From positions 56,472 through 120,471 of the forward strand of contig JAUNOM010000005.1 of the NCBI GenBank assembly GCA_030531085.1: a DNA stretch of 64,000 bases, written 5' to 3'. Source of the stretch: Prevotellaceae bacterium. GTDB lineage: Bacteria; Bacteroidota; Bacteroidia; Bacteroidales; Bacteroidaceae. Below the pieces are notes generated by a model. The model was not told the DNA's origin. It did not search any database and saw only the letters and a program-made list of their open reading frames with translations. The translations under genes were made by a program, and so were the position numbers. Shown here in pieces: positions 6,319 to 63,648 of this stretch (the stretch's first letter is position 1; every line of letters begins with the position of its first letter).

Positions 6319-6544
6319 GTTTGTGGTTTTTGGTTGTAGGTTTGGGGTTGTGGGTCTGTCGCTTATGTGGTTTTTGGTTGTCGGTTTTAGGTTGTGGGTC
6401 TGTTCTTTTTGATTTTAGGTTGTGGCTTTGCCTGAATGGATTGGCCGTGAATAGCAGAGAAAAACACCCTCGCACCGCGAGAACCTACAACGCAAAACCC
6501 AAAAGGGGACAGACCCACAACCTAAAACCGACAACCAAAAACCA
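6319..6544. repeat. G/T-rich palindrome with 36-bp perfect arms
   Basis: The stretch 6368-6403 is the exact reverse complement of 6509-6544. The left arm is made of G/T phrases such as GGTTTTTGGTTGT; a near copy of it also lies just upstream from about 6325 as a direct repeat. It fills most of the 498-bp space between the two pectinesterase genes, which holds no gene. Similar-style palindromes recur near 20.0 kb and 28.5 kb. Confidence 0.85.
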
Positions 6545-9799: not shown

Positions 9800-10241
9800 C
9801 AAAACGTCACAAAAACGGCTGTTTTGCTTACGTTTTGCTATTTGGGGACTTTCGGTTTCACCTTGCGTTTTAGAGAGAAATGACTCCACTTTGCATCCCT
9901 TTGTATGGCGTTTTTAATGCCTTTGGGCGCAATTTGTAGTGTTTGCTGTGCAAAAGCTATGTGATTGCATTGCAATCTCTATCATATTGCACTGTGAAAG
10001 CATAGAGATTGTAGTGTAATATCTATCTGATTGCAGCGCAAAGGCGTCCCTTTCACTCCCCTTTTAGAGTGCTTTTAAAGCATGAAAAATTCCAACTTCA
10101 AGATTATCAGTGTCTTGCGTCGCTGCACGGAGAATGCGCTGTACGCGCCCACGTGAAGATAATTTTTGTACACGCGATTCTCCGAGGGCGTAAAAAATCA
10201 AAGTGTCAGAAAAAAAGCCATTTTCCTGACACTTTGATTTT
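9800..10241 (+). repeat. 442-bp non-coding dispersed element, copy 1
   Basis: The element is bounded by two hairpins whose loops carry an AAAAnGGC..TTTT core. The left stem is CAAAACGT/ACGTTTTG (9800-9807, 9830-9837). The right is a perfect 16-bp stem (10194-10209 with 10226-10241). In between, in order, are CGTTTTAGAGAGA, a block with TGCAATCTCTATCA and TATCATATTGCAC, GCGCTGTACGCG, and GCGATTCTCCGAGGG. The same pieces occur in the same order on the opposite strand at 20224-20665, also 442 bp. No credible gene lies inside. The right hairpin sits 26 bp beyond the stop of the leftward M20 gene and could end its transcript. Confidence 0.8.
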
Positions 10242-18152: not shown

Positions 18153-19268
18153 ATGACAACACAGGAGCAATTAAAGGATGTAAAGGACCGTGCCGACGCC
18201 CTGGCACGTTATCTGGACATAGACCAGAAGAGGATAGCATACGAGGAAGAGGACCTGAGAACGCAGGCTCCGGACTTCTGGGACGACCCCGACAGGGCGC
18301 GACAGCAGATGAAGGTGGTCGGAGAACTGAAGAAATGGATAGAGGGATACGACGAGGTGCGGACGGCGGCCGACGAGCTTCAGCTGAGCATGGAGTTCTT
18401 CCGTGACGAGATGGTTACGGAAGAGGAGGTGGATCAGGCCTATGACCGCGCGATAAAGGCCATAGAGTCGCTGGAGCTGCGTAATATGCTGCGACAGGAG
18501 GAGGATCCTATGGACGCGGTACTGAAGATAAATTCCGGCGCAGGAGGCACCGAGGCGCAGGACTGGGCGCAGATGCTGATGCGTATGTATATGCGCTGGG
18601 CGGAGAAAGGTGGCTACAAGGTGACCGTGGTAGACCTGCTTGAGGGCGACGAGGCCGGCATAAAGTCAGTCACAATGCAGATTGAAGGCGGCGAGTACGC
18701 ATACGGATATCTGAAGTCCGAGAACGGTGTGCACCGTCTGGTGCGTGTAAGTCCCTACAACGCGCAGGGCAAGCGCATGACGAGTTTCGCCTCTGTATTC
18801 GTGACACCGCTTATTGATGACTCCATAGAAGTGGAGGTGGACCCCGCGCGTATATCGTGGGACACATTCCGTTCAGGCGGTGCCGGCGGCCAGAACGTTA
18901 ACAAAGTGGAGACGGGTGTCAGGCTGAGGTATATGTATCAGGACCCTGATACGGGTGAGGAGGAGGAGATTCTCATTGCCAATACCGAGAGCCGCAAGCA
19001 GCAGCAGAACCGTGAGAACGCCATGCGACTGCTCAAGTCACAGCTCTATGACCGCGCCATGAAGAAGCGGATGGAGGCGCAGGCCGCCATAGAGGCAGGC
19101 AAGATGAAGATTGAATGGGGCAGCCAGATACGCTCATACGTATTTGATGACCGCCGTGTCAAGGACCACCGCACCAACTATCAGACATCAGACGTGGACG
19201 CGGTGATGGACGGTAAGCTCGACGGCTTTATCAAAGCGTACCTCATGGAGATAAACAATAAGGAGTAA
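18153..19268 (+). CDS. prfB: Peptide chain release factor 2
   Basis: 371 residues. The GGQ motif that triggers peptidyl-tRNA hydrolysis is at 245-247 (RSGGAGGQNVNKVE). The stop-codon-recognition tripeptide, usually Ser-Pro-Phe in RF2, reads Ser200-Pro201-Tyr202 here. The gene is one uninterrupted frame: where many species have an in-frame UGA and programmed frameshift after the ARYL-D region, this has CTG GAC, so that autoregulation is absent. RF2 decodes UGA and UAA. Tight linkage to the acyl-CoA synthetase (6 bp) indicates one transcript. Confidence 0.96.
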   Translation: MTTQEQLKDVKDRADALARYLDIDQKRIAYEEEDLRTQAPDFWDDPDRARQQMKVVGELKKWIEGYDEVRTAADELQLSMEFFRDEMVTEEEVDQAYDRAIKAIESLELRNMLRQEEDPMDAVLKINSGAGGTEAQDWAQMLMRMYMRWAEKGGYKVTVVDLLEGDEAGIKSVTMQIEGGEYAYGYLKSENGVHRLVRVSPYNAQGKRMTSFASVFVTPLIDDSIEVEVDPARISWDTFRSGGAGGQNVNKVETGVRLRYMYQDPDTGEEEEILIANTESRKQQQNRENAMRLLKSQLYDRAMKKRMEAQAAIEAGKMKIEWGSQIRSYVFDDRRVKDHRTNYQTSDVDAVMDGKLDGFIKAYLMEINNKE

Positions 19269-19480: not shown

Positions 19481-19972
19481 ATGGAGATAGAGCGTAAATT
19501 CCTCGTCAAACGCGACGGTGCGTTCCGCGATATGGTGCGCTCCTCCTCGTCCATAGCACAGGGTTATATGGACGTGAGGGGCGCGACGGTGCGCATACGT
19601 CTGCGTGATGACAGGGCATACCTAACCATTAAGGGGCCGTCGTACGACGGTGGAGTGTCGCGTTATGAGTTTGAACGCGAGATACCTGTGAAGGATGCCA
19701 GGGAGATGCTGGCCCTGTGCCGCGGCGGACTGATAGAGAAGACGCGCCATCTGGTTCCGTATGAGGGGCATATCTTTGAGGTTGACGAGTTTCATGGGGC
19801 CAATGAGGGCCTGCTGTTCTGCGAGGTTGAACTGAGCAGTGAGGATGAGAGTTTCTCAAAACCGCCGTTCCTCGGCCCGGAAGTCACAGGCAACCGCCAT
19901 TATTACAACTCACATCTGCTGACAGACCCATATCCCAACTGGAAGGATGAGGTGCCTGAGGGGTACAGATGA
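19481..19972 (+). CDS. CYTH-domain protein (triphosphate tunnel fold)
   Basis: 163 residues. It opens with the ExExK signature MEIERKFLV and continues with alternating charged beta strands: TVRIRLRDDRAYLTIKGP, then YEFEREIP, then a late YEGHIFEVDEFHG. CYTH enzymes bind a metal-triphosphate inside a beta barrel; bacterial members hydrolyse inorganic triphosphate or related substrates. It ends an apparent four-gene rightward group with the acyl-CoA synthetase, prfB and the small membrane peptide. The actual substrate cannot be told from sequence. Confidence 0.88.
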   Translation: MEIERKFLVKRDGAFRDMVRSSSSIAQGYMDVRGATVRIRLRDDRAYLTIKGPSYDGGVSRYEFEREIPVKDAREMLALCRGGLIEKTRHLVPYEGHIFEVDEFHGANEGLLFCEVELSSEDESFSKPPFLGPEVTGNRHYYNSHLLTDPYPNWKDEVPEGYR

Positions 19973-19989
19973 GTTTAAGTTGTTTAGTG

Positions 19990-20193
19990 GTTTAGTCGTT
20001 TGGTGGTTTAGTTGCTTGTGCAGTTGTTTAGTGGTTTAGTAGTTTGGCAGTTAAGTTATTTGGTTAGTTGTTTAGGAAGTTGGTCGTTTGGTGGTTTAGT
20101 TATTTGGTTGCTTGCTTCTGTAAGAGACCGACTAATACCCCAAAATATCCCTAAACAGCGTACACAAGCAACTAAACCACCAAACGACTAAAC
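19990..20193. repeat. G/T-rich palindrome with 31-bp perfect arms
   Basis: 19990-20020 is the exact reverse complement of 20163-20193. The left flank is a run of phrases such as GTTTAGTGGTTTAGT from 19976 to about 20115; the right flank is the A/C-rich counterpart. Sequence differs from the palindrome at 6.3 kb but the grammar is the same. No gene lies in this stretch. Confidence 0.85.
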
Positions 20194-20223
20194 AACTAAA
20201 CAACCAAACTCGTCCAACTTACA

Positions 20224-20665
20224 GATTGTAACTAAAACGGCCTTTTTACTTACAATCGCGTTTTTCGCACCCCTCGGAGAATCGCTTATTTGAAAAATAT
20301 CTTTCCGCGGACGCGTACAGCGCAATCTGAATGGATTTTGTTAACATATTGAATGCCTTGGAGTTAGCATTATGTGCGAGTCTGAAGAGATGCGAAATCC
20401 CCCGAAAAGTGGCGCTTTTGTGCCCTTTTCGGGGGATTTTCATGCTGCAATCACTATCATTTAACGATGCAATCTCTATCAAATTACTGGGTAATCAGAT
20501 AGAGATTACACGGTAAAAGCTATCATATTGCACCACAAGAGCATTTTTATTGCTTTTTAGAAGGTGCAAACAGGCTTCCGTCTCTCTAAAACGTGTGGTG
20601 GAGACAGGTGTTCAAAAAACAGCGATTGTAAGTAAAATGGCCTTTTAACTTACAATCGCTGTTTT
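20224..20665 (-). repeat. 442-bp non-coding dispersed element, copy 2 (inverted)
   Basis: Read leftward it repeats the order of copy 1 at 9800-10241: a perfect 17-bp hairpin (20616-20632 with 20649-20665; loop around AAAATGGCCTTTT), CGTTTTAGAGAGA, the TATCATATTGCAC and TGCAATCTCTATCA blocks, GCGCTGTACGCG, GCGATTCTCCGAGGG, and a closing hairpin GATTGTAA/TTACAATC (20224-20231, 20250-20257) with an AAAACGGCC loop. Length equals copy 1 although much of the sequence has drifted. It lies 34 bp beyond the stop of the secreted-protein gene at 20699. Confidence 0.8.
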
Positions 20666-32811: not shown

Positions 32812-34011
32812 TTATCTCTTCTCGTCGGGGTGAGCTAGATAGTATGCCCTGAGAGCTGTTGATGATACCTTGATGAAGCCTTTGGCATCCTCTGACGACC
32901 ATGCCTTGGCTGTCTCGCCATATTCGCCGAGCTTGTTCTTGACAAGGTCGTTCGGTGAGTCCACACCCACAGTCTGGAAACCGAGAGGGCGCAGCTCCAG
33001 CTCCACCTCACCGGTGACATTGCGCTGTGATGACGCAAGCATCGCCTCGATGTCCGCCATTACAGGCTCCAGATACTGTGACTCATGCAGGAACATTCCA
33101 TACCAGTTAGCCACCTGGTCCTTCCAGTACTGCTGCCACTTGGACAGTGTGTACTTCTCAAGGAAGCGGTGTGCGCCGATGATAAGCATTGGGGCAGCGG
33201 CCTCAAAGCCCACACGTCCCTTGATGCCGATGATTGTGTCGCCCACGTGACAGTCACGGCCTATGCCGTAAGCGGCGCCTATCTCCTCCACAGCCTGTAT
33301 GGCCTTGATTTTGTCGTCATAGCGCTTGCCGTTGACAGTGCACAGCTCTCCCTTCTCGAAACCGAGCTTCAGAGTCTCCGGACCCTCCTTTGTAGGATGC
33401 TTAAGATATGCAGATTCGGGCAGTCCCTGCTTGGAGTCGAGAATCTCTCCGCCACAGATTGATGTGCCCCAGATGCCTACGTTGTATGAATACTTCAGCT
33501 TTGTGAAGTCAGCAAAGAACCCGTGCGCGTTGAGATAGTCTATCTCTTCCTGACGTGACAGGTTGCCATCACGTGTAAGGGTGATGATCTCCACGCCCGG
33601 AGCCATTACAAGGAAAGTCATGTCAAAGCGTATCTGGTCGTTGCCGGCACCCGTTGAGCCGTGCGCAATGGCGTCGGCGCCAATCTCATTGGCGTAGCGC
33701 GCGATGGCGATAGCCTGGAAAATGCGCTCGGATGATACTGATATCGGATAGCAGTTGTTACGGAGCACATTGCCGTAGACCATGTATTTGAGTGACTTCT
33801 CATAGTACTCCTGCGTAACATCAAGTGTAACGTACTTTACTGCACCGAGTTTGTAGGCGTTCTCCTCATTAGTCTTGAGCTGCTCGGCTGAGAAACCGCC
33901 GGTATTGGCGCACGCTGCGTACACCTCATAACCGTCCTGTGCGAGTTTCATCACTGTGTAGGAGGTGTCAAGGCCTCCACTGAAAGCTACTACTACTTTT
34001 TTCTTTGTCAT
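32812..34011 (-). CDS. argG: Argininosuccinate synthase
   Basis: 399 residues. The N-type ATP pyrophosphatase loop AFSGGLDTSYTV opens the protein; HGSTGAGNDQIRF and a GIWGTSICGGEILD segment mark the citrulline/aspartate site. It condenses citrulline with aspartate at the cost of ATP. It lies 58 bp after the acetyltransferase gene and 35 bp before argC. argF, argH and argB are not in view. Confidence 0.94.
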   Translation of the reverse strand: MTKKKVVVAFSGGLDTSYTVMKLAQDGYEVYAACANTGGFSAEQLKTNEENAYKLGAVKYVTLDVTQEYYEKSLKYMVYGNVLRNNCYPISVSSERIFQAIAIARYANEIGADAIAHGSTGAGNDQIRFDMTFLVMAPGVEIITLTRDGNLSRQEEIDYLNAHGFFADFTKLKYSYNVGIWGTSICGGEILDSKQGLPESAYLKHPTKEGPETLKLGFEKGELCTVNGKRYDDKIKAIQAVEEIGAAYGIGRDCHVGDTIIGIKGRVGFEAAAPMLIIGAHRFLEKYTLSKWQQYWKDQVANWYGMFLHESQYLEPVMADIEAMLASSQRNVTGEVELELRPLGFQTVGVDSPNDLVKNKLGEYGETAKAWSSEDAKGFIKVSSTALRAYYLAHPDEKR

Positions 34012-35917: not shown

Positions 35918-35990
35918 GGTGCCATAGCTCAGTTGGTAGAGCAAAGGACTGAAAATCCTTGTGTCCCCGGTTCGATTCCTGGTGGCACCA
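35918..35990 (+). tRNA. tRNA-Phe(GAA), probable integration site of the island
   Basis: 73 nt. The acceptor GGTGCCA pairs with TGGCACC, discriminator A; the anticodon stem AAGGA/TCCTT holds CTGAAAA (anticodon GAA); the T-loop is TTCGATT. CCA is not encoded. A rightward integrase gene begins 255 bp downstream and base composition falls from here on, so the 3' half of this tRNA is the likely attachment sequence. The matching right end is outside the window. Confidence 0.95.
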
Positions 35991-35998
35991 CTCGAAAA

Positions 35999-36027
35999 GG
36001 AAGTTGAGATAATCAGCTTCCTTTTTT
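35999..36027 (+). terminator. Terminator of tRNA-Phe
   Basis: The 9-bp stem GGAAGTTGA/TCAGCTTCC (one T-G pair), loop GATAA, is followed by six T. Confidence 0.85.
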
Positions 36028-36146
36028 GTTATATTGAATTTGTTGTTTTGTAGATTGTAAGTGGTTGATTTCATGTCAATTAAACATACATTCAACTAAC
36101 ATCAATTCTGTTATAACGAAAAATTCAAAAAAGGGAACGACCCGGT

Positions 36147-36170
36147 TGGTGTACATTGTGGTGTACATTG
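36147..36170. repeat. Two abutting 12-bp direct repeats upstream of the integrase
   Basis: TGGTGTACATTG occurs twice without a gap, 75 bp before the integrase ATG and about 160 bp from the tRNA end. This place and form suit arm-type binding sites of a tyrosine recombinase, or an operator of the integrase gene. Neither is shown. Confidence 0.6.
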
Positions 36171-36244
36171 GAAAAGTCACATCCGGTTACAACTATTGGT
36201 TCATCATTCTTCTATTCTTAAATGCAAAGCAAGAACAAAGAGTT

Positions 36245-37522
36245 ATGGTGAAACTAAAATTCATAATAAAGGATAGTTCCCTCGTCCTGAGAATAAGTGA
36301 GGGGAAAGAGAGATACTACAAATCGGTCAAACACCTTTTGGCCGGCAGTCCCAATTTAGCGAAGCATTGGAACGCGGACAAAGAGCGTTTCTCAGCCAAC
36401 GCCGTTTCATACTCGGAAAATAACAAGATTCTGGAGGAGTTCAAGAGCCCCTATATAAAGTTGCTGCTTGAGCATCCCGAACTCACGGCGAGGCAGGTGG
36501 CATCATACTTCCAGCCTATCAAGCAAGTCAAATGTGAAGTCATTGAAAGACCGGTGGGAAATACTGTAGCAGCATCCGATTTCAACTTTGTTGAGAAATA
36601 TCTGGAAGAGGTTATCTTGCGGGAGAAGGCAAAGTTGGGCTGCAATTTTGAGACCTATTCCAAACTGCTAAGCAAGTGCCGCAAAATCATCAAAGGATTC
36701 TCATCCTTGACTTTCCAGTCGCTCGATTATAAGGCTTGCGTTCAACTGGCCCACACATTTGCAAAATATGACGGGTACAAGGGAACATCAAAATCTTTCA
36801 GAAACTTACTGGGCAAGGCCAGCAAAGACAAGGATGTTCCATTCTCATTGGTCCAGATAGGCGACTTCAAGTTCGCGGAATATAATCCCAAAAGAAACTG
36901 CGCTGACAATAAAACTCCCGACATATTAACGCAAGAGCAACTGAGACGATTCATCAATGCGGATTTGTCCAAACTCACTCCGCAATACAAAAACCGGAAA
37001 GAAGTCGAACTGTATCGCGATTTCTGCATATTCATGTTCCATTCCTTTTTCGCTCCATGTGATGTCATTAAACTGAAATACTCGGAACTTACTCGCAATA
37101 ACACTATCAGAACCAGACGCAAGAAAACACATCAACTGGTTGAAGTTCCTGTGTCTCCAGTAATGGGGAACATCATTTCCAAATACAGAGGGACAACTAC
37201 AGATGGATATGTCTTTCCAATCATGGACGATGAAAAAGAAAAGACATACCAGACCAAAGACTATACATTCAAAAAGTTTCGGGAAAAGCTCAATATCTGG
37301 CTTAAATCAGTCGGAAAAGAGCTGGGTGTGGACTATGACCTGTATGCCTATGTGTTTCGCCATACGGCAATCACTGTGGCCTTGGATAGCGGCTTGCCCA
37401 TTTCCTATATTGCAATGGCGGCAGGGACAAGCATAGAGATGATCCAAGAGCATTATTATAATGGGGACAGCATCACGAATCAGCAGAGACTACAGATGGC
37501 GTTTATGAAAGCTGCGACATAA
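36245..37522 (+). CDS. Tyrosine recombinase (integrase) of the island
   Basis: 425 residues from the ATG at 36245; upstream in-frame ATGs give an unlike N-terminus. It has an N-terminal Arm-DNA-binding domain, a SAM-like core-binding domain (about 120-220) and a catalytic domain (about 225-425). Kept: the Lys strand TRRKKTHQLVEVPV, Arg372 in FRHT, and the nucleophile Tyr404/405 in EHYYNGD. Changed: the first catalytic Arg, expected where FFAPCDV reads Ala270, and the His of the HxxR box, here Tyr369. AGTS replaces the LGH motif, as in many phage integrases. It would excise and insert the element at tRNA-Phe. Activity with no first Arg is questionable. Confidence 0.88.
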   Translation: MVKLKFIIKDSSLVLRISEGKERYYKSVKHLLAGSPNLAKHWNADKERFSANAVSYSENNKILEEFKSPYIKLLLEHPELTARQVASYFQPIKQVKCEVIERPVGNTVAASDFNFVEKYLEEVILREKAKLGCNFETYSKLLSKCRKIIKGFSSLTFQSLDYKACVQLAHTFAKYDGYKGTSKSFRNLLGKASKDKDVPFSLVQIGDFKFAEYNPKRNCADNKTPDILTQEQLRRFINADLSKLTPQYKNRKEVELYRDFCIFMFHSFFAPCDVIKLKYSELTRNNTIRTRRKKTHQLVEVPVSPVMGNIISKYRGTTTDGYVFPIMDDEKEKTYQTKDYTFKKFREKLNIWLKSVGKELGVDYDLYAYVFRHTAITVALDSGLPISYIAMAAGTSIEMIQEHYYNGDSITNQQRLQMAFMKAAT

Positions 37523-50988: not shown

Positions 50989-52035
50989 TTACATTACTAT
51001 CTCCCAATCCTCAGCAAACACATCACTGATAGACGGCACCCATGAATCAGCACGACCAGTGTTCTCATTATAGATAAGGCACTGGGAAGTGTAATCTATG
51101 GTTCCTTTGCCTTTTAGAATAAGGCCTTTTGCGGATTGAGGCAGAGATTGCATCTTGGGAATGATTTCCTCAGTAATATGAGCCGGCACTTGTTTGATGA
51201 CCCACAAGCCTTTACCATTCCAGCCGCTTCTACGAACTGGATAACCCGCTTTGAGAGCCATGATAGCCATGCCAAAATTCATCTTTCGCACTTCTGCGCT
51301 ATCAGAGCCTTGCATACGTTGTATGCGAGCGTCAAGAAGGCGTATATAGTCGAACATGGTGTAGCACTGCATTTCCAGCAAACACTTGTTGTACGTGTCA
51401 TCCACAACTTCATTCATTTTGCCAGAGTCTATGAAAGCAGCCAACTTTATATATCTGTCATTGACTTCGCTGGCTTCTATCTGCATACGGTCAACAGGTG
51501 TTTCAGCAATCTTATATGCCTTTTCAAACACATCTTTCGGGGACCAACTTTCATAGCCATCTTCATAAACGACTTTGTAGCCGTCTTCACGATTCATCGA
51601 GCGAGGCACCTCTCCATCTTTAGGATATACTTTACCATCTACTCGCCACGCAGGAGTGGCACTAACTGTTTTTGTTCCAATATACTTTTTCATATAATTA
51701 TTTGATTTTTTAATTTCTATAGCATTAGCTAATATGTTTTGCGCAAAGCTTTGGCCGTCAGTTAAAAAATCCAAGCTCTCATTGTGAAACATCTTTCGAT
51801 ATTCTTTTTCTGATGTTGGATAACACATGCGACCAGCTAAATGTGATGTAGGGCCAGCGCCCATCAATCTAACACAGCCGCTATCTAATAAGAAAGCACC
51901 AATCCCCCAACAACCATGTTGCTTAGGATAAAAATAATAGGCTTCTTTTCGGCTATTATCAACGCTTTGAAGATATAACCCATTATTCAAGAAAATGGGG
52001 AACCCTTGATAAAACAAAATGCGTTCATCTATCAT
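50989..52035 (-). CDS. Multi-part phage-type protein ending in a DUF2829 (Tad2-like) domain
   Basis: 348 residues. The first 110 form an unknown module. From about 114 (MKKYIGTKTVSATPAW) a phage-type module continues with YEDGYESWSPKDVFEKAY and a helical RYIKLAAFIDSGKM segment. The last 90 (MNFGMAIMALKAGYPVRRSGWNGKGLWV ... FAEDWEIV) match DUF2829, the fold of Tad2, which traps the cyclic-ADP-ribose-type signal of Thoeris defence. The fusion in one chain is unusual; Tad2 proteins are normally small. Anti-defence activity is inferred from family alone. Confidence 0.75.
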   Translation of the reverse strand: MIDERILFYQGFPIFLNNGLYLQSVDNSRKEAYYFYPKQHGCWGIGAFLLDSGCVRLMGAGPTSHLAGRMCYPTSEKEYRKMFHNESLDFLTDGQSFAQNILANAIEIKKSNNYMKKYIGTKTVSATPAWRVDGKVYPKDGEVPRSMNREDGYKVVYEDGYESWSPKDVFEKAYKIAETPVDRMQIEASEVNDRYIKLAAFIDSGKMNEVVDDTYNKCLLEMQCYTMFDYIRLLDARIQRMQGSDSAEVRKMNFGMAIMALKAGYPVRRSGWNGKGLWVIKQVPAHITEEIIPKMQSLPQSAKGLILKGKGTIDYTSQCLIYNENTGRADSWVPSISDVFAEDWEIVM

Positions 52036-52979: not shown

Positions 52980-54077
52980 TTATTTGCTTCGCCATTCGTT
53001 CATCTTGGCTTCGATGTCAATGCCATTGTTAGCAATCAACTCTTTCATAGCACCGAACATACGCCAACCTTCTCCATTTTTATAGACTTCAGCAAGTTTA
53101 TCAAGCTCACGGAGAGATGACGACTCTACCAGCGGATTCCCCTTGCTGCTAAGCATTTTGCATCCGTGGAACATAATAAGGTTACGCATGGTGAAGTAGC
53201 CACCAGCACCCTTGTACGCATCCTTAAACGCCGGGCTCATCACGAGACTGTAAGGTGAATACATCTCTTTCACAATCTGGTAGAATCCGACGACAGCACG
53301 GTAGAGGTCTGTCATGTTTTTTGCATCCTTAATCTGTCGGGCGCATCTTTCCAGCGGATTGAACACTTTCTTGCGCAAATCATCAACGAAGATGTTATTG
53401 CCGTTGAGCGTGATATAAGGATTGCCCTTACAACGCTTACATTTCTTCTTTCTCTGTTCAACATGCTCGTTAAGCTGCTTGAGATAGTCTGCTGCCATTG
53501 CACTGGCTACATTCTTATTAAACCAACGATTGCGCTGGATAAAATTCTCCTGGTCAAGCACCTCCAGCTTAGCCTGTATGCGGATTTCCTCAATCAGCAT
53601 TTCCCAGCTATAACGGAAGCCCTTTGCCTGAAGCGCATTAAGAAATCCTACAGGCTTACCGGTTTTCCAATTCTTCTGAGTCAGCATGTGGAACACTTGT
53701 GCCATAACCCATCTGCGGAACAAGCGGCGGTTGGGTACAGTGCCGCCTTTGAAGATGGCGATAATAATAGGGTCGTTGTCTGCCAAGATCGTCAGACCGC
53801 CGTTTTCAAGACGGGCGATAGATTCAACTCCTTCTGCGTTTGTTACTGCGAAAAGGTTTGTTACGTCAATACCGGCGGCTTTCATCGCCTCAATCTTCTT
53901 TGATGCTTTCATTGCTATTCTGTTTTTAGAATTTGAATTGTTTTCTGATTCAAGCGGGAGCGTAACAGTTCCCAGACCGCTATCCTTACCGATAGCGATA
54001 CCTGCTGTGAATGACTCATGTTCAGGAATTGCGATACTTGCGCCGCATTTAGGGCATACTACTTTTGTTTCTTTCAT
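52980..54077 (-). CDS. Zinc-ribbon protein of mobile elements (365 residues)
   Basis: An N-terminal ribbon CPKCGASI (and the expected second Cys pair is absent) is followed by a linker (about 15-60), a core with FKGGTVPNRRLFRRWVMAQVFHML, a central CKRCKGNPYI site, and a helical C-terminus. I recall similar proteins on Bacteroides islands but know no function. Arg-rich core and zinc sites suggest nucleic-acid contact. Overlaps the upstream gene by 4 bp. Confidence 0.55.
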   Translation of the reverse strand: MKETKVVCPKCGASIAIPEHESFTAGIAIGKDSGLGTVTLPLESENNSNSKNRIAMKASKKIEAMKAAGIDVTNLFAVTNAEGVESIARLENGGLTILADNDPIIIAIFKGGTVPNRRLFRRWVMAQVFHMLTQKNWKTGKPVGFLNALQAKGFRYSWEMLIEEIRIQAKLEVLDQENFIQRNRWFNKNVASAMAADYLKQLNEHVEQRKKKCKRCKGNPYITLNGNNIFVDDLRKKVFNPLERCARQIKDAKNMTDLYRAVVGFYQIVKEMYSPYSLVMSPAFKDAYKGAGGYFTMRNLIMFHGCKMLSSKGNPLVESSSLRELDKLAEVYKNGEGWRMFGAMKELIANNGIDIEAKMNEWRSK

Positions 54078-54478
54078 AACTTATTTAATGATTGCTGAAT
54101 TTTAATTTGTAATAGTTCTTGCTCTTGCTTTTCAAACTTTTGTTTTAGTCTACTAAATGATTGTTGATATTGTTTTAGCGCATTTCTTTGCATCAACACT
54201 TTATGTGTAAGGGATTCAAATAAATCTTTAGTATCTTTACAATCTGGATTTTCTGTTACTTTAGATATAATCGAATCAATATACTCTCTTAAATCTTCAA
54301 CTTTGGTATTAAGCGATTGATTTGCAATTTTCAATTGCTTGTTTTCCGTCTGAAGTAGTTTGTATTGTTTGCTTCTTTGAATGTCATACTCCTTAAATTT
54401 TTGAATAGCTAAACGCAATCGCTCTACTTCTGAAAGCCCATTCAAATCGTATGGTTTTCGTATCTCTATATTATCCAT
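54074..54478 (-). CDS. Coiled-coil protein (134 residues)
   Basis: Long heptads from residue 20 on (LAIQKFKEYDIQRSKQYKLLQ, then LKQKFEKQEQELLQIKIQQ); almost wholly helical. Overlaps both neighbours (4 and 13 bp). Confidence 0.6.
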   Translation of the reverse strand: MDNIEIRKPYDLNGLSEVERLRLAIQKFKEYDIQRSKQYKLLQTENKQLKIANQSLNTKVEDLREYIDSIISKVTENPDCKDTKDLFESLTHKVLMQRNALKQYQQSFSRLKQKFEKQEQELLQIKIQQSLNKL

Positions 54479-54918
54479 TGTCTTAATATTATTAGTGATT
54501 TATACTTGTCTGATTGCCAAAACCAATAACCCTTGGCAAACTCATCCCATATCAAGTCGCTATTGAGAATTGCGATTAAGAGATATAGCTCTAAACGCAA
54601 TTGAGCAAGTTCACGGTTTTCGCCGTAGAGCATATCATCTTCAGATAGCTCGTGTTCGGGTAAGGCTCGGAAGTAACGTCTGTATCTCGCTTCACTTCGA
54701 GCGGACGGGACGCTGCGACAATACTGCCAGTAAAACCCTTCTACCATCACAAGTAGATCGTTGACAGGAAAGTTGGTGTCATATCCCAGACATCCTTCAT
54801 ACTGACCATCCTTGATGATGTATTTACCATCAATTACAAGGTCACGCTTCTCCAAATTGATTCTGAAGGTGGAACCATTATGGACTTTTTCTTGCGCTTC
54901 ATTCCAAATATTTTCCAT
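54466..54918 (-). CDS. Hypothetical protein (150 residues), next to the hairpin array
   Basis: DLVIDGKYIIKDGQYEGCLGYDTNF in the first third (landmark), then Arg-rich EARYRRYFRALPEHELSEDD. Its start codon is 40 bp left of the first array box. If the array is transcribed leftward, this is the next gene on that transcript. No family recognised. Confidence 0.5.
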   Translation of the reverse strand: MENIWNEAQEKVHNGSTFRINLEKRDLVIDGKYIIKDGQYEGCLGYDTNFPVNDLLVMVEGFYWQYCRSVPSARSEARYRRYFRALPEHELSEDDMLYGENRELAQLRLELYLLIAILNSDLIWDEFAKGYWFWQSDKYKSLIILRQWII

Positions 54919-54957
54919 TGAATGTCAATTAAAAAGGACGTATTCAAAATTTGTGAC

Positions 54958-55119
54958 GTAGTTCTTTAATCGAATCGATACATAACAGGTATTGAATCCG
55001 GGTGAGGTCAGGATATAATCCTGAGAGAACCCGGATGATTGTGACCTGTTACTTAAAGCCAAATCCCTTATACATCCGATGTTACGTTACATTGTTTTAA
55101 TTATGCTCAGGCTAATTGA
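54958..55119. ncRNA. Hairpin array unit A
   Basis: The box CTTTAATCGAATCGAT (54965-54980 region) is followed by a three-segment hairpin: TAACAGGT/ACCTGTTA (54983-54990, 55044-55051), ATCCGGGT/ACCCGGAT (54996-55003, 55029-55036) and TCAGGAT/ATCCTGA (55008-55014, 55018-55024). A linker with TTAAAGCC completes the unit. Confidence 0.7.
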
Positions 55120-55278
55120 CACATTGCTATATTAGAGCCGATGCGAAGAGCGGGTTTGGCACGCGTAGGTCATCTCATATTTGAGATGAACCACGCGTGT
55201 GTGTACCCGCCGCGCTGAATTAAAGCCACTTGCATAATTGATACTGTGCTGTATTGATAGTCAGTCTCATCAGTTTGG
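55120..55278. ncRNA. Hairpin array unit B
   Basis: The box CATTGCTATATTAGAGCCGA is followed by GCGGGT/ACCCGC (55150-55155, 55205-55210), CACGCGT/ACGCGTG (55160-55166, 55193-55199) and CATCTCA/TGAGATG (55171-55177, 55182-55188). The linker again has TTAAAGCC. Confidence 0.72.
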
Positions 55279-55441
55279 CACATTTCTATATTTGTTTCGA
55301 TTAGAGAGCTGGATGCCGAAGGCGAGTAATCCAGGTTTCAAACCTGGATGGATAGCCTTCGTTCAAATCCAGTCTCTTATAAAGGTGCTGCCTTGACTGG
55401 CCGAAGTTGTGCTGAAAGAATTTTGGTTCTCAAAACTGCGA
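55279..55441. ncRNA. Hairpin array unit C
   Basis: The box CATTTCTATATTTGTTTCGA is followed by four nested stems: AGAGA/TCTCT, CTGGAT/ATCCAG (55309-55314, 55367-55372), CGAAGGC/GCCTTCG (55317-55323, 55355-55361) and ATCCAGGTT/AACCTGGAT (55329-55337, 55341-55349). Confidence 0.75.
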
Positions 55442-55581
55442 TACATTACTTCAATCGTTTCGATGTGTGCGGCCAGATGAACGGAGTGCGCCGGCTCACG
55501 CGGTGGATTCTGGCCGCAAAGCTGAACATTAGTTTCTTGAACCTGGCCGGCTGTATTGCCGAGATTACCAAGATATAATTG
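55442..55581. ncRNA. Hairpin array unit D
   Basis: The box CATTACTTCAATCGTTTCGA is followed by a 10-bp outer stem TGCGGCCAGA/TCTGGCCGCA (55468-55477, 55509-55518) and a weaker inner stem CGCCG/CGGTG (55489-55493, 55501-55505). This is the shortest interval to the next box (140 bp). Confidence 0.68.
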
Positions 55582-55763
55582 CACATAACTATATTGGCGT
55601 CAATATGAAGAAGATTCGCCAGAATCGACGGGCTGGCCGGAGATGGTAATCACCGCTCCAAAAGCCCGTCGATTCTGGTTTGAGTCTTCAGAATTAAATT
55701 TTATATCTCATAATCTATCTTGTGCAGATGCCCAAATGTTTTATGATTGTCAAGCGTTTTTGT
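55582..55763. ncRNA. Hairpin array unit E
   Basis: The box is diverged (CATAACTATATTGGCGTCAA). Stems are TGAAGA/TCTTCA, a perfect 16-bp CCAGAATCGACGGGCT with its complement (55619-55634, 55663-55678), then GGAG/CTCC and GGT/ACC. This is the longest continuous helix of the array. Confidence 0.75.
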
Positions 55764-55922
55764 ATGGTTCTGTAATCTTTTCGATGTACGTGATCTGCTT
55801 CATCGATAACGGTCCAGGATGTGTAACAGACTCGGACCTTATCGAGTGTTAAGGAGATCACGCTGAAGTATTCGCTATTCAATCATATTCTGCATACTCA
55901 GAAGAGAAGTCAGGTTTTACTG
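55764..55922. ncRNA. Hairpin array unit F
   Basis: The box GGTTCTGTAATCTTTTCGAT is followed by CGTGATCT/AGATCACG (55789-55796, 55855-55862) and TCGATAA-GGTCC/GGACC-TTATCGA with one bulged C (55803-55815, 55834-55845). Confidence 0.72.
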
Positions 55923-56089
55923 TGTAATACTTTAATGGTGTCGATATTAGGATCATCTTGTCTTGATTCTGACAGTCTTGGTGGTACACTCAAGACGAAA
56001 CGAATCAAGAGTTAAAGATGATCTTAATTGAATTTTGAAGCCATTCCTCTCAAACCGTACACTCGGTTGCTGAAAGTCAGCACTTATGG
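55923..56089. ncRNA. Hairpin array unit G
   Basis: The box TAATACTTTAATGGTGTCGA is followed by GATCATCTT/AAGATGATC (55951-55959, 56015-56023), TCTTGATTC/GAATCAAGA (55961-55969, 56002-56010) and GTCTTG/CAAGAC (55975-55980, 55991-55996). The linker contains a small hairpin TGCTGA/TCAGCA. Confidence 0.75.
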
Positions 56090-56243
56090 TGCATTTCTGT
56101 AATCATTTCGATATTGGGACGCCATTCTGTCCGCTGGAAGCTCCGGCGCAGGAGTCGGGTACGACTACAAGTCTGAGCTGGAACTGGACAGCATTATGGC
56201 GTCTAAATTGAAAGAAGTGCTCTTCTTCCAGCGTATTGCACTA
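56090..56243. ncRNA. Hairpin array unit H, next to the reverse transcriptase gene
   Basis: The box CATTTCTGTAATCATTTCGA is followed by GACGCCAT/ATGGCGTC (56118-56125, 56196-56203), CTGTCC/GGACAG (56127-56132, 56186-56191), AGCTC/GAGCT and AGTC/GACT. The outer stem ends 40 bp before the RT stop codon at 56244. Confidence 0.74.
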
Positions 56244-57518
56244 TCAAAGATTCTCAACCAATGTCGCATAAGCTTCACGGCTCGTCAGAAGAGCGTTTCT
56301 CATGCAGCCAATGGTTAAATAGCCGGGAATTTCTTGCTCCGTCTTGTTTCGGTTGCTTTTGACATTTCTGCCCTGTCCGCGTTGTATGCAACCTTCAGAC
56401 TTTGTTTTGACATAGCCAAGACCACCAATTTTCTTCTTACCGGTTTGCACAGCCCTCAGACAATCCATGACAAATTTATTCAGTTCGTTAATGTCTTTGT
56501 TGACATTGCAAATAGGGAGAACTTGTGTGGCCCAACTAAACTCGCCATTGCCCTTATAAAGATAACGATTGACAGAATTGACCGCCTTGGTTAATGTGAT
56601 TCCCCGTTGTTTGATTGTACGGTGCTCAATTTCCTTCTGGAAAGTTTTTATTCGAGACCCGCTTAATGAGATGTCAGCCCCTTTTATAGAAAAACCAAGG
56701 AATTTGAACCAATGTGTATGAGTCAAGTATTCCACTTTCTTCGGATTGAGCTTCATACTCATTAGCGAAAGGTCATCTGTCAAAATCGCCATCGCTCTTT
56801 CGTATTCGGGGCCAACGAAAAGCATATCATCGGAGTAACGGACATAGAAGCCATCCAATTGACTTAGCTTGGAGTCAATATGGTATAGAAGGACATCGGC
56901 TAACCACGAGGCGACAGCGCAGCCCTGCTTCAATGACTGATATTTTTGCAACAGGTTGCCGTCTGGGTCAAAGTAATAATCGCTGTGATAATACTTTCTT
57001 AGCACATCAATCAGTGCAGAGTGACCATATTGAGACTCTACCATGTCAAATGCCTTATCAATAAATTCGATGGGCACGCTATCGAAATACTTGCTGAGGT
57101 CAGACTTCCAGCCAATTACATCACCCTTAGTCCCGCATATCGTTCTTGAAACTTCCTGAACTACTTTTCCACAACCAGTGCCTTTCTGATAGGACTTACA
57201 ACTTTTGTGAACCATATCTGGAGTCAATTCAAAAAGGAGATCGTTGGCAATACTAAGAAGTATGCGGTCCATCGGTTCGTTGATATAGACCGTTCTGAAC
57301 TCACCGTTGTCCTTGGGTATTTGAGCCGTATGAGGAGGGGCAATTTCATATTTGCCATTCTTGATAGCCTGATACATTTGAGCCCTCACTTCGGGCTTCG
57401 CTAATTTACAAAGGTCTCGTCGGTTTATGTCTTTGCCGACACCCTTATCAATAGCATATTCCCATCGAGGAAACTCAAAAAATTTTTCTAATATAATATC
57501 TTCCATTTTGATTTTCAA
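56244..57518 (-). CDS. Reverse transcriptase associated with the hairpin array
   Basis: 424 residues. RT blocks in order: IPKDNGEFRTVYI (RT1), LSIANDLLFELTPDM (RT2), WKSDLSKYFDSVP with Asp140 (RT3), SLKQGCAVASWLADVLL (RT4), FYVRYSDDMLFVG with Asp230-Asp231 (RT5), KLNPKKVEYL and WFKFLGFSIKG (RT6-7). A tail of about 140 residues ends with a basic segment (GRNVKSNRNKT) and YLTIGCMRNALLTSREAYATL. The RT4 block lacks the SQ ending of diversity-generating RTs, and no group II maturase or retron-type C-terminus was recognised. The gene abuts the 73-residue ORF (no gap) and is followed by the eight-unit array. Template and product are unknown. Confidence 0.88.
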   Translation of the reverse strand: MKIKMEDIILEKFFEFPRWEYAIDKGVGKDINRRDLCKLAKPEVRAQMYQAIKNGKYEIAPPHTAQIPKDNGEFRTVYINEPMDRILLSIANDLLFELTPDMVHKSCKSYQKGTGCGKVVQEVSRTICGTKGDVIGWKSDLSKYFDSVPIEFIDKAFDMVESQYGHSALIDVLRKYYHSDYYFDPDGNLLQKYQSLKQGCAVASWLADVLLYHIDSKLSQLDGFYVRYSDDMLFVGPEYERAMAILTDDLSLMSMKLNPKKVEYLTHTHWFKFLGFSIKGADISLSGSRIKTFQKEIEHRTIKQRGITLTKAVNSVNRYLYKGNGEFSWATQVLPICNVNKDINELNKFVMDCLRAVQTGKKKIGGLGYVKTKSEGCIQRGQGRNVKSNRNKTEQEIPGYLTIGCMRNALLTSREAYATLVENL

Positions 57519-57740
57519 TTAAAACCATTTCAAAAGTCGAGGAGTTTCCCAGTAATAATTCTTTTCTGGGCAAAACTCTCTTAATGCAATGATAATTTTG
57601 TTTTTCAACTCTGCCTTTTTCAGAAACAGCCGGCCTTTGCTTAAAGAATAATCACGCCCCCTTTTCAACCCGTAAAGAGATAATATCGATGGAATACATT
57701 GTTCAAGTTCAACTATGATATTTGCTGATACTTTTGACAT
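57519..57740 (-). CDS. Small partner ORF directly upstream of the reverse transcriptase (73 residues)
   Basis: Helical, basic in the middle (GLKRGRDYSLSKGRLFLKKAELKNKI), Trp/Phe at the end (TPRLLKWF). Its stop is immediately followed by the RT start, so translation is likely coupled. It is too short and unlike the accessory protein Avd of diversity-generating elements. An RNA-binding helper is a reasonable guess only. Confidence 0.6.
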   Translation of the reverse strand: MSKVSANIIVELEQCIPSILSLYGLKRGRDYSLSKGRLFLKKAELKNKIIIALREFCPEKNYYWETPRLLKWF

Positions 57741-57742
57741 AA

Positions 57743-58210
57743 TTAGAAATGATAATCCAACACGCTGTTAATATAAAGAACGGTTCCAACCTTCATATCT
57801 TCTAATAGTTCCAATAACACTCTTGGTTTACATGTCATGTCGCCAGCCCAATCAGAAAGACAAAAAAGAATATATTTGGCAAAGGGGTAGTCAATGGATT
57901 CTCTTAATCTGTATGTATTACAATGTCTTTCTTCAATGAATAATTTTAACTCTTTTTGTAACGCTTGGTGCCACTCATTTTTTACAGCTTCAATGTTACC
58001 ATTGTACACAATTGTATCAGGTTCTTTACCACGATAGAATAAACTTCTAAACCAGTGATAGTCATATAACTCTTCGATAGCATTAGTGCGTTCTTGACCT
58101 GTTAATAGTGTGGTATAATCCACATTCGCATCATCATAAAAATTACTCTCATCTGCCCAATCATCCGGGTGAACCGCGTCTTGAGTTATTTCATAAATAA
58201 AACTGTGCAT
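57743..58210 (-). CDS. Acidic hypothetical protein (155 residues)
   Basis: Opens MHSFIYEITQDAVHPDDWADE; a middle stretch LTGQERTNAIEELYDYHWFRS and the C-terminal LFCLSDWAGDMTCKPRVLL. No family recognised. It is 2 bp from the RT partner ORF. Confidence 0.5.
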   Translation of the reverse strand: MHSFIYEITQDAVHPDDWADESNFYDDANVDYTTLLTGQERTNAIEELYDYHWFRSLFYRGKEPDTIVYNGNIEAVKNEWHQALQKELKLFIEERHCNTYRLRESIDYPFAKYILFCLSDWAGDMTCKPRVLLELLEDMKVGTVLYINSVLDYHF

Positions 58211-58800: not shown

Positions 58801-59469
58801 TTAAACTGATAGGGCTACAGCAGGGCGAACCACGTGAGTGTTGCACTTGCCGTTGCCGTAGCTGTAACCACTGTAGAAGTTCACGACCCACGAGATGTAG
58901 GCACTGTTCTCAGTGGAAGACCAGTACCACTCTTTTCTCATCGGAGAACCACCAACAGCCTCCAGCGCCTTGTTGACTTCCTTTATATTCAGCAGAATGA
59001 GATGCAACTGGGCGAGAGATGGAATATACTGTCCTTCTTTCAGGTCAATCTTCGGATTCAATGCCTCACCATAGTCCTTGGTATTGGCTTCACCATCCCA
59101 GTCTGTGATTGCATCGAAGAAGTCTGAGTGATAAAACTCTGGAGTGCCACTTATTCCATCTGCGGTAAGAGCAACCTCTTCACCATCAGCTGCGTCGTGA
59201 AGCGCAACAGTCGCGATTTTATCACCCATTTTGACAGCCACGCCAATTACCTTGTCGGCGATTGACTTCGGGTCGTCAGTAGATGTGAGGTGTCCACCCT
59301 CCAAGACGTAATACACACCGTCTGACCAGAACTGTTGCTGGAATGAAGCCGGAGCTTGTTCATCACCAGTTACGAAATTGTACACTTTCTTTGCTTTCTC
59401 AACATCGAAGTTGAGGTTGGCTACGATAGCCATTCTGAGCTTTTGAATCTCTGTAAGATTTGCTGCCAT
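58801..59469 (-). CDS. C-type-lectin-fold protein with a variable-region-like C-terminus
   Basis: 222 residues. The first 180 hold a helical start and a beta region. The C-terminal 40 (WYWSSTENSAY ... VVNFYSG ... VVRPAVAL) are the end of a formylglycine/C-type-lectin fold as in DUF1566 and in targets of diversity-generating retroelements. Between Asn-Phe and the Val-Arg-Pro end many codons are NNC (TAC, AGC, TAC, GGC, AAC, GGC, TGC, AAC, CAC), the mark left by adenine mutagenesis of AAC codons. No matching template repeat was found here. Probably a ligand-binding display protein. Confidence 0.7.
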   Translation of the reverse strand: MAANLTEIQKLRMAIVANLNFDVEKAKKVYNFVTGDEQAPASFQQQFWSDGVYYVLEGGHLTSTDDPKSIADKVIGVAVKMGDKIATVALHDAADGEEVALTADGISGTPEFYHSDFFDAITDWDGEANTKDYGEALNPKIDLKEGQYIPSLAQLHLILLNIKEVNKALEAVGGSPMRKEWYWSSTENSAYISWVVNFYSGYSYGNGKCNTHVVRPAVALSV

Positions 59470-63258: not shown

Positions 63259-63648
63259 TTAAGAATTTGGTTGTTCCCAAAGTATTTCTTTATTATTCGC
63301 TTCAGACAAGGCATCGGACAAATTCTTTATCATTTGTTCGCACTGCTCCATATCTTTCACGACATCAGTAAGGCGATACGGCGCTCCGTTTTTGCCATGC
63401 CCATCAGGGCCGACCCAAAGCATAGCTTCCTCGTCCGGGTCATACCCTTCATAGTAGTTATCAACTTCCTCAATCAGGGTATAGATGTCATAATTTTGCA
63501 TCGTAGCCCAGAAACAAAAGTCTTGTCCAAAATCGGTGTACTGGGAGAAAGTAAACTCAACATCGTCACCATTGATCTCAGTGCTCACGGAAAATCCTTG
63601 GCTTTCCGCGATTTCTATAATACGGTCAATAAACTCTTGCTGATTCAT
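63259..63648 (-). CDS. Acidic hypothetical protein (129 residues)
   Basis: Opens MNQQEFIDRIIEIAESQGFS, has DDVEFTFSQYTDFGQDFCFW and a DVVKDMEQCEQM helix. Function unknown. Confidence 0.55.
   Translation of the reverse strand: MNQQEFIDRIIEIAESQGFSVSTEINGDDVEFTFSQYTDFGQDFCFWATMQNYDIYTLIEEVDNYYEGYDPDEEAMLWVGPDGHGKNGAPYRLTDVVKDMEQCEQMIKNLSDALSEANNKEILWEQPNS

Follow-up and report, generated by a model that had tools for sequence, protein, structure and literature searches.

What does a single reverse transcriptase (RT) do beside eight structured units that share a short box but not the sequence of their long hairpins? The question is raised by a 64,000-nucleotide (nt) stretch of a Prevotellaceae bacterium (contig JAUNOM010000005.1 of assembly GCA_030531085.1, positions 56,472 to 120,471), analysed here as a whole and referred to as the window. 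Its minus strand carries an RT gene of the UG27 group (56244..57518), an eight-unit array, and the genes of two conserved partners of no known family, p150 (54466..54918) and p365 (52980..54077). Read in the sense of the RT, each unit consists of a small stem-loop, a long variable hairpin and a box, the bases upstream of the hairpin pair with the box of their own unit, and, as judged from sequence, the array, the RT, p150 and p365 are as a rule inherited as a set. An earlier note on this DNA was right that the RT adjoins the array, but its orientation had to be corrected, since the RT lies on the minus strand with the array downstream of it, so that within a unit the hairpin is read first and then the box.

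The RT, 424 residues as listed, matches the PADLOC profile RT_UG27, from which the group name is taken, over 420/420 profile positions (E 2.2e-232, 769 bits), and by this match it is a member of the UG27 group. The next-best PADLOC profile is UG26 (115 bits), with Drt9 and UG17 (DRT10) also among the next best. The catalytic YSDD, which the earlier note had called intact, is indeed so and is present in 26/26 aligned RT sequences, RYSDD being common to UG27 and UG26 RTs. In a tree of 32 RTs, which took in UG26, Drt2, Drt3a, group II, two phage RTs and one diversity-generating retroelement (DGR) and left out DRT9 and DRT10, UG27 forms a single clade with full support on a long separate branch, without resolution of its sister group. 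Scores for other classes stay far below their cut-offs, with 38.8 bits against 235 for the retron profile NF038233 (35.9 bits for PADLOC RT_Ec107-like) and 89.7 bits against 300 for the group II intron maturase profile TIGR04416. A self-comparison of the window (E<=1e-3) returned no repeat touching 54-58 kb and so no template/variable pair of a DGR there. Among 198 genomes of the order, profile searches turned up no RT of DRT9 or of DRT10, and the controls likewise gave nothing. The UG27 RT itself is rare, being found by protein search in 3/393 genomes of the order, its own included, and by profile search in 1/395 genomes of the phylum, namely its own.

RT and p150 are separated by 1.3 kb in which only short overlapping open reading frames (ORFs) occur. 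The box, for which a weight matrix from relatives gives a consensus of about ATCRAA-N5-TAAAGNAATGTGCC, then TGAGA, was found eight times on the minus strand within 54.9-56.2 kb, with first bases at 56115, 55948, 55788, 55607, 55467, 55304, 55145 and 54982 and spacings of 140-181, which recovers the eight units of the earlier note where it had placed them. Elsewhere in the 64 kb, on both strands, just one other match reaches at least 13 bits, a weak one at 63275. The array folds to a minimum free energy of -392.7, with pairs limited to 120 nt, against -274.5 +/- 9.7 in 12 dinucleotide shuffles (z -12.1), in line with the long structured hairpins described before, and 19 loci treated in the same way, with 12 shuffles each, gave z values of -3.5 to -16.6. 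Between window units the hairpin zones have a mean identity of 0.51, against 0.50 when shuffled, and the boxes 0.62 against 0.49, so that the arms are as unrelated as the earlier note had held and the boxes are related. The array does not qualify as a CRISPR array, its boxes sharing only this 0.62 identity and its variable parts being hairpins. Copies of it were found nowhere else in its own genome at E<=0.001, and Rfam gave two matches over 54400-58000, both under the gathering score.

Each unit also has a loop or stretch complementary to its own box, a feature absent from the earlier note. The loop of the small stem-loop usually reads A-N5, and in the window five upstream bases are complementary to the unit's own box in 8/8 units, with seven different box 5-mers among them. 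A first pairing test found a complementary upstream loop in 125/146 units, where 500 permutations gave 41 on average and 56 at most; six of the window units have a small stem that passes this test, the exceptions being units 1 and 6. A second test covered 225 units and picked the loop by stem strength alone, blind to the box, and six units without a 6-nt loop with a stem were dropped; 157/219 units pair, against a permuted mean of 35.3 and a maximum of 49 in 1000. When the two commonest boxes were taken out, 100/135 units still paired (permuted maximum 25), and when shuffling was confined to within arrays (60 arrays) the maximum was 90 in 2000 against the 157 observed, which removes the common descent of arrays as an explanation. 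A loop pairs with its own box in 72% of cases, with the boxes of other units of its array in 16% and with those of other arrays in 15.5%. Two further ideas were rejected, namely that a box pairs with the loop of the next unit (-6.28 versus -6.42 permuted) and that units of one array avoid cross-pairing (16.3% versus 15.5%).

The kinds of base pair involved bear on the molecule in which this pairing occurs. Among the 219 units, 139 pair by Watson-Crick pairs only and 18 have one G-U, and units with just one A-C or another lone mismatch are absent. In a structure formed in DNA or by the opposite strand, G-U would not be expected to be the only mismatch spared, so that the sparing of G-U but not of A-C points to a scaffold that works as RNA of the RT strand and in which loop and box would form a pseudoknot within the unit. 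In the small stems, counted for fully pairing loops only, single departures are 47 G-T versus 26 A-C; the pseudoknot counts from that tally (44 G-T, 34 A-C) are affected by misalignment and selection and are not used. Together with the compensatory changes between relatives described below, this covariation within units supports the proposal of the earlier note that the units are probably functional RNAs. It bears equally on a reading in which the array is a DNA-level cis element (an origin, recombination or packaging site) that sits in the operon by chance; regular spacing, many inverted repeats and the lack of G-U bias in the long hairpins would suit such an element, but pairing that accepts G-U and not A-C would not, nor would units that keep to the RT strand even after p365, and we hold this reading to be highly improbable.

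In the window, where all units are on the minus strand, unit 1 comprises a long hairpin at 56118..56203 and a box at 56070-56115; the partner of its TGCAC is GTGCA (56237-56241), which lies directly past the RT stop codon, and a clear small stem is absent. Unit 2 (hairpin 55951..56023, box 55903-55948) has the loop AGTGTA at 56058-56063 (GTGTA/TACAC), unit 3 (hairpin 55788..55863, box 55743-55788) the loop AGTATG at 55893-55898 (GTATG/CATAC) and unit 4 (hairpin 55610..55689, box 55562-55607) the loop GCACA at 55721-55725 (GCACA/TGTGC). In unit 5 (hairpin 55468..55518, box 55422-55467, loop AATACA at 55552-55557, ATACA/TGTAT) 32 nt of the hairpin top are missing relative to the loci L002, L003 and L037, which accounts for the 140-nt spacing. 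Unit 6 (long hairpin 55304..55377, box 55259-55304) shows no clear small stem in strict tests, the complementary AGCACA lying at 55408-55413 (GCACA/TGTGC). The series ends with unit 7 (long hairpin 55143..55215, box 55100-55145, loop AGCACA at 55245-55250), whose pairing GCACA/TGTGT includes one G-U, and unit 8 (long hairpin 54982..55052, box 54937-54982, loop AACGTA at 55083-55088, ACGTA/TACGT).

The long hairpins, of median length 83 (157 units), mostly end 2-7 nt before the box. The earlier note had named compensation in their arms between strains as a test, and in six close relatives 50/352 consensus pairs of whole units carry a pairing-preserving change on both sides; by cell of the comparison, 1839 are unchanged, 59 changed on one side, 65 changed on two sides and 149 unpaired (L033, with only seven boxes detected, was left out). 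Hairpins resembling each other at an identity of at least 0.66 form no pair within any array and 410 pairs between loci (332 units, 64 loci), 319 of them at nearly equal distance from the RT. This combination marks the array as a duplicate-free set whose members have their own identity. The hairpin of unit 2 changes fast, with an identity of 0.55 between window and phage BS-TP1, and units 1, 6 and 8 have identities of 0.89, 0.84 and 0.85 between window and L034, against 0.77 for the RT gene. Single departures in otherwise intact helices number 54 G-T and 69 A-C (unique), or 53 and 54 in the non-redundant set, so that the long hairpins have no clear G-U preference; this would fit selection as DNA, as a weak and merely suggestive hint.

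These properties can also be read in favour of units that act as RNAs, as guides, sponges or inhibitors, in a ribonucleoprotein (RNP) with RT and p150, the RT copying something else or mainly binding RNA. The scaffold selected as RNA (18 G-U versus 0 A-C), the conservation of hairpins by position between phages and the higher identity of units 1, 6 and 8 than of the RT gene would all agree with this, while the YSDD of every aligned RT and the missing G-U preference of the long hairpins speak against it; we consider it unlikely.

Whether RT and array belong together was examined in 34 relatives, 32 loci from a scan of viral contigs and two from a phage collection that cover the RT, with four phage records of just 22-24% RT identity left out. 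Relatives of p150 and p365 accompany the RT in 34/34 loci, and a non-coding stretch of ~630-1630 nt separates RT and p150 in 29/34. The exceptions are L028 and L030, in which this stretch is <200 nt, L024 and L032, in which RT and p150 are fused, and L021, in which p150 and p365 lie upstream of the RT. Another twelve loci, taken from cellular genomes, are consistent with this within the length available. A search with the p365 alignment gave 77 further loci, many of them on contigs shared with the first set, with the RT in 73, p150 in 76 and at least two neighbouring boxes in 70; of the four without an RT, three are at a contig end and one is L125. The proteins of L125 look close to those of L014, a locus that has all the parts.

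A non-redundant set of 64 loci was made from 120 records by merging RT genes that are at least 97% identical, after records with an RT stretch of ~900 nt or less had been dropped. At least two neighbouring units occur in 59/64 of these loci (range 2-10; 49 loci with 4 to 8, one with ten), which is the presence of units near homologous RTs that the earlier note had asked for, and 0/9 UG26 loci have them within the ~1.5 kb covered on each side. With position and orientation kept across many diverged phage loci and with constant partners, the view that RT and array belong together is borne out, and the joint inheritance of array, RT, p150 and p365 is the usual state. Gene fusion is a classical sign of joint function, and the RT frame extends by >100 codons that match p150 in 10/64 loci, with L042 as an additional locus of this fusion type; a joint function of RT and p150 is thereby indicated. 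The carriers of the cassette are viruses of gut Bacteroidales, and named hosts are all Bacteroidota (Prevotella, Palleniella, Muribaculaceae, Alistipes, Butyricimonas and Bacteroides).

Outside the masked arrays, the box matrix scores at least 9 at 58/596,414 positions, and 24 of the best 25 of those 58 are on the RT strand, many being genuine additional units located beyond p365 or in unmasked arrays. Such units in equal orientation downstream of p365 were seen in L027 (8950-9848, up to six consecutive), in L042 after 5533 and in L005 and L012 near 9350. A box-pattern scan of viral contigs yielded 17 stretches; of those beyond the known UG27 contigs that were rescanned, none had two neighbouring boxes of at least 13 bits on one strand, and they look like chance matches.

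The position of the array between RT and p150 on one strand, with the partner of box 1 just past the RT stop codon, could indicate operon regulation, in which the hairpins would attenuate the RT-p150-p365 transcript or serve in its processing or stability. Regulation would, however, seem to need fewer than the up to ten pseudoknotted, non-identical modules, the number of neighbouring units ranges from 2 to 10 over 59 loci with more units after p365, and in L125 RT and array are missing jointly from the ~5 kb upstream of p150. Regulation of this kind is improbable in our view.

The two partner proteins give few clues from homology. Searches of Pfam, PHROGs and NCBIfam returned no match for the window p150 and only weak, sub-cut-off matches for the window p365. 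Taken member by member, the p365 family gave one weak match of one member in PHROGs and the p150 family one weak match of one member in Pfam, to an RNA-ligase profile (E 7e-4). p365 is largely helical, and a CxxC pair can be read by eye close to its N-terminus. The predicted models have a mean predicted local distance difference test (pLDDT) score of 93.4 for p150 and 77.6 for p365, whose first ~54 residues are of low confidence, and Foldseek found no match in the PDB at E<=0.001 for either model.

Two more ORFs of the minus strand adjoin these genes. p134 (54074..54478), between p150 and p365, is matched in 1/34 relatives, phage BS-TP1, and is probably not core. The 73-residue ORF before the RT (57519..57740) does precede it as the earlier note had described, but probably not without a gap, as the likely start of the RT is an ATG four codons further in (57506), which matches the start in relatives and leaves 12 nt between the two. 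Nor is this ORF a core part, since it occurs only in close relatives and was seen just before the RT in 5/34 relatives and in 3/12 of the further loci.

We give an even chance to an account in which one UG27 RT works with p150 and probably p365 on an array of modular non-coding RNAs (ncRNAs) in a retron-like or DRT-like RNP, with the hairpins as templates. The units would be transcribed as discrete RNAs, the pseudoknotted scaffold would be the handle bound by RT and p150, and RT, p150 and perhaps p365 would form an RNP with each unit. Synthesis by the RT would begin within or close to the conserved box, on the 3' side of the hairpin, and would turn the hairpin into one of DNA, comparable to the copying of the msd in a retron; a single enzyme would in this way produce a set of different DNA hairpins. 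That the units are templates or effectors of the RT had been suggested in the earlier note and is what we infer as well. More weakly, the hairpin set may act in phage-phage or phage-host conflict, in defence of the lysogen or as decoys or inhibitors against host defences, which would explain the fast divergence of arms with pairing kept. An extended version is offered tentatively, as falling somewhat short of an even chance; here the system would be a multiplexed DNA-hairpin factory, with the RT, two new subunits and a heritable stock of retron-like modules, non-redundant and up to about ten in number, that have the pseudoknot handle in common and differ in their hairpin templates. The phage would release a panel of different DNA hairpins, each with its own target, and would evolve by change, gain and loss of modules.

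A different use of the units would be a short-template mode resembling DRT10 and DRT3a, in which a segment of the scaffold is copied into tandem repeats and the hairpin serves as template boundary or trigger. The class 2 UG (unknown group) RTs studied so far make tandem-repeat complementary DNA from short ncRNA templates, DRT3a using ACACAC, according to the excerpt of the source (PMC13174585), and UG27 loops often read A-GCACA or A-ACACA. Loop and box covary, however, to 33 pair types, G-U variants included, which fits pairing better than one fixed template, and the several unrelated hairpins of each array would be left unexplained; we judge this mode to be quite unlikely.

Several observations weigh against hairpin copying by a UG27-p150-p365 complex. 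The tree, in which UG27 sits on a long branch without a resolved sister, places it neither inside nor outside class 2, and p150 and p365 are without a recognised fold. In the test based on the stem only, 62/219 units have two or more mismatches and are unpaired, although many of these probably reflect a wrongly chosen loop. The G-U argument for hairpins that matter as DNA is weak: a cruder count of departures in the long hairpins gives 88 G-T and 72 A-C, a separate count of inner stems gives 43 and 33, and the 54 versus 69 of the stricter count is indistinguishable from half (p 0.21). Only isolated boxes were found in 5/64 loci (L024, L028, L032, L091 and L097), and the arrays of the fused clade are weaker or placed elsewhere. 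L125 (4800-6969) has p150 and p365 without RT or array in the ~5 kb seen upstream of p150, and the two proteins may therefore have a role of their own.

On its left side the window consists of host chromosome, with genes for a peptide chain release factor (18153-19268) and argininosuccinate synthase (32812-34011). A tRNA-Phe gene (35918-35991) is followed by a tyrosine-integrase-like gene (36065-37522) that slightly misses the cut-off for PF00589 (E 2.6e-5, 24.5 bits, cut-off 27.1). Host genes lie to the left of 35918-37522 and phage genes further right, and a prophage attachment site is likely there. The cassette region is akin to Bacteroides phage BS-TP1 (111.7 kb; RT identity 86%), whose annotation includes tail, portal, integrase and partition genes. 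On account of the host genes to the left, the tRNA-Phe and integrase-like genes and the relatedness to BS-TP1, the cassette is most likely part of a prophage inserted at tRNA-Phe.

Three other features of the window were noted in passing. Two genes downstream of p365, at 50989-52035 on the minus strand, lies a gene for a protein with crAss001_48-like and Tad2-like (Thoeris anti-defence 2) domains. At 58801-59469, also on the minus strand, is encoded a protein that matches Lcl_C weakly and has a WYWSST-type end; in close relatives it is found near the RT. Inverted repeats in the host part (6324-6544, 10131-10241 and 19968-20665) are partly of low complexity, and some are mutually related.

If the proposed account is true, one RT drawing on many arrayed modules, in which the handle is conserved and the hairpins vary freely, would amount to a multiplexed DNA-writing system of natural origin, and the purpose of phage-borne RTs of unknown group would become testable. 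By way of the loop-box code, modules can be located, counted and altered directly, and the new protein families p150 and p365 are clear knock-out targets. Among the open PubMed Central (PMC) matches listed, no description of UG27 RTs or of arrays of RT-associated hairpin RNAs was found, and an earlier subscription or preprint account is possible. To our knowledge, RT-ncRNA systems have one RNA per enzyme.

Retrons combine, next to their RT, an RNA portion that is conserved with a long hairpin (msr-msd). The present cassette shares this layout and differs in that its RT is not of the retron class, in having many modules as opposed to the one of a retron, and in that it is not known to make a branched product. 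UG26, with the nearest profile after UG27 and a shared RYSDD, has neighbouring boxes, p150 or p365 in 0/9 loci within ~1.5 kb on each side, a distance beyond which p365 is possible. BS-TP1, which carries a relative of the cassette, has a second RT, gp25, beside the four-helix protein gp26 (L064 26168-28151); the pair is probably a DGR and is likewise borne by a phage, but gp25 is a gene separate from the UG27 RT, and no match of gp25 was found in the window. For the class 2 UG RTs examined to date, the template is a cis-encoded ncRNA, as given in the excerpts of the two sources (PMC12632851, PMC13174585). Systems of this class (DRT2, DRT9, DRT10 and DRT3a) resemble the cassette in combining a UG-type RT with a structured cis-encoded ncRNA, and a predicted conserved structured ncRNA in cis, one of the marks of class 2, is present here in the form of an array. 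Where those systems have one ncRNA each, as far as the same excerpts describe them, the cassette has 2-10 neighbouring modules, the p150/p365 pair and a phage setting.

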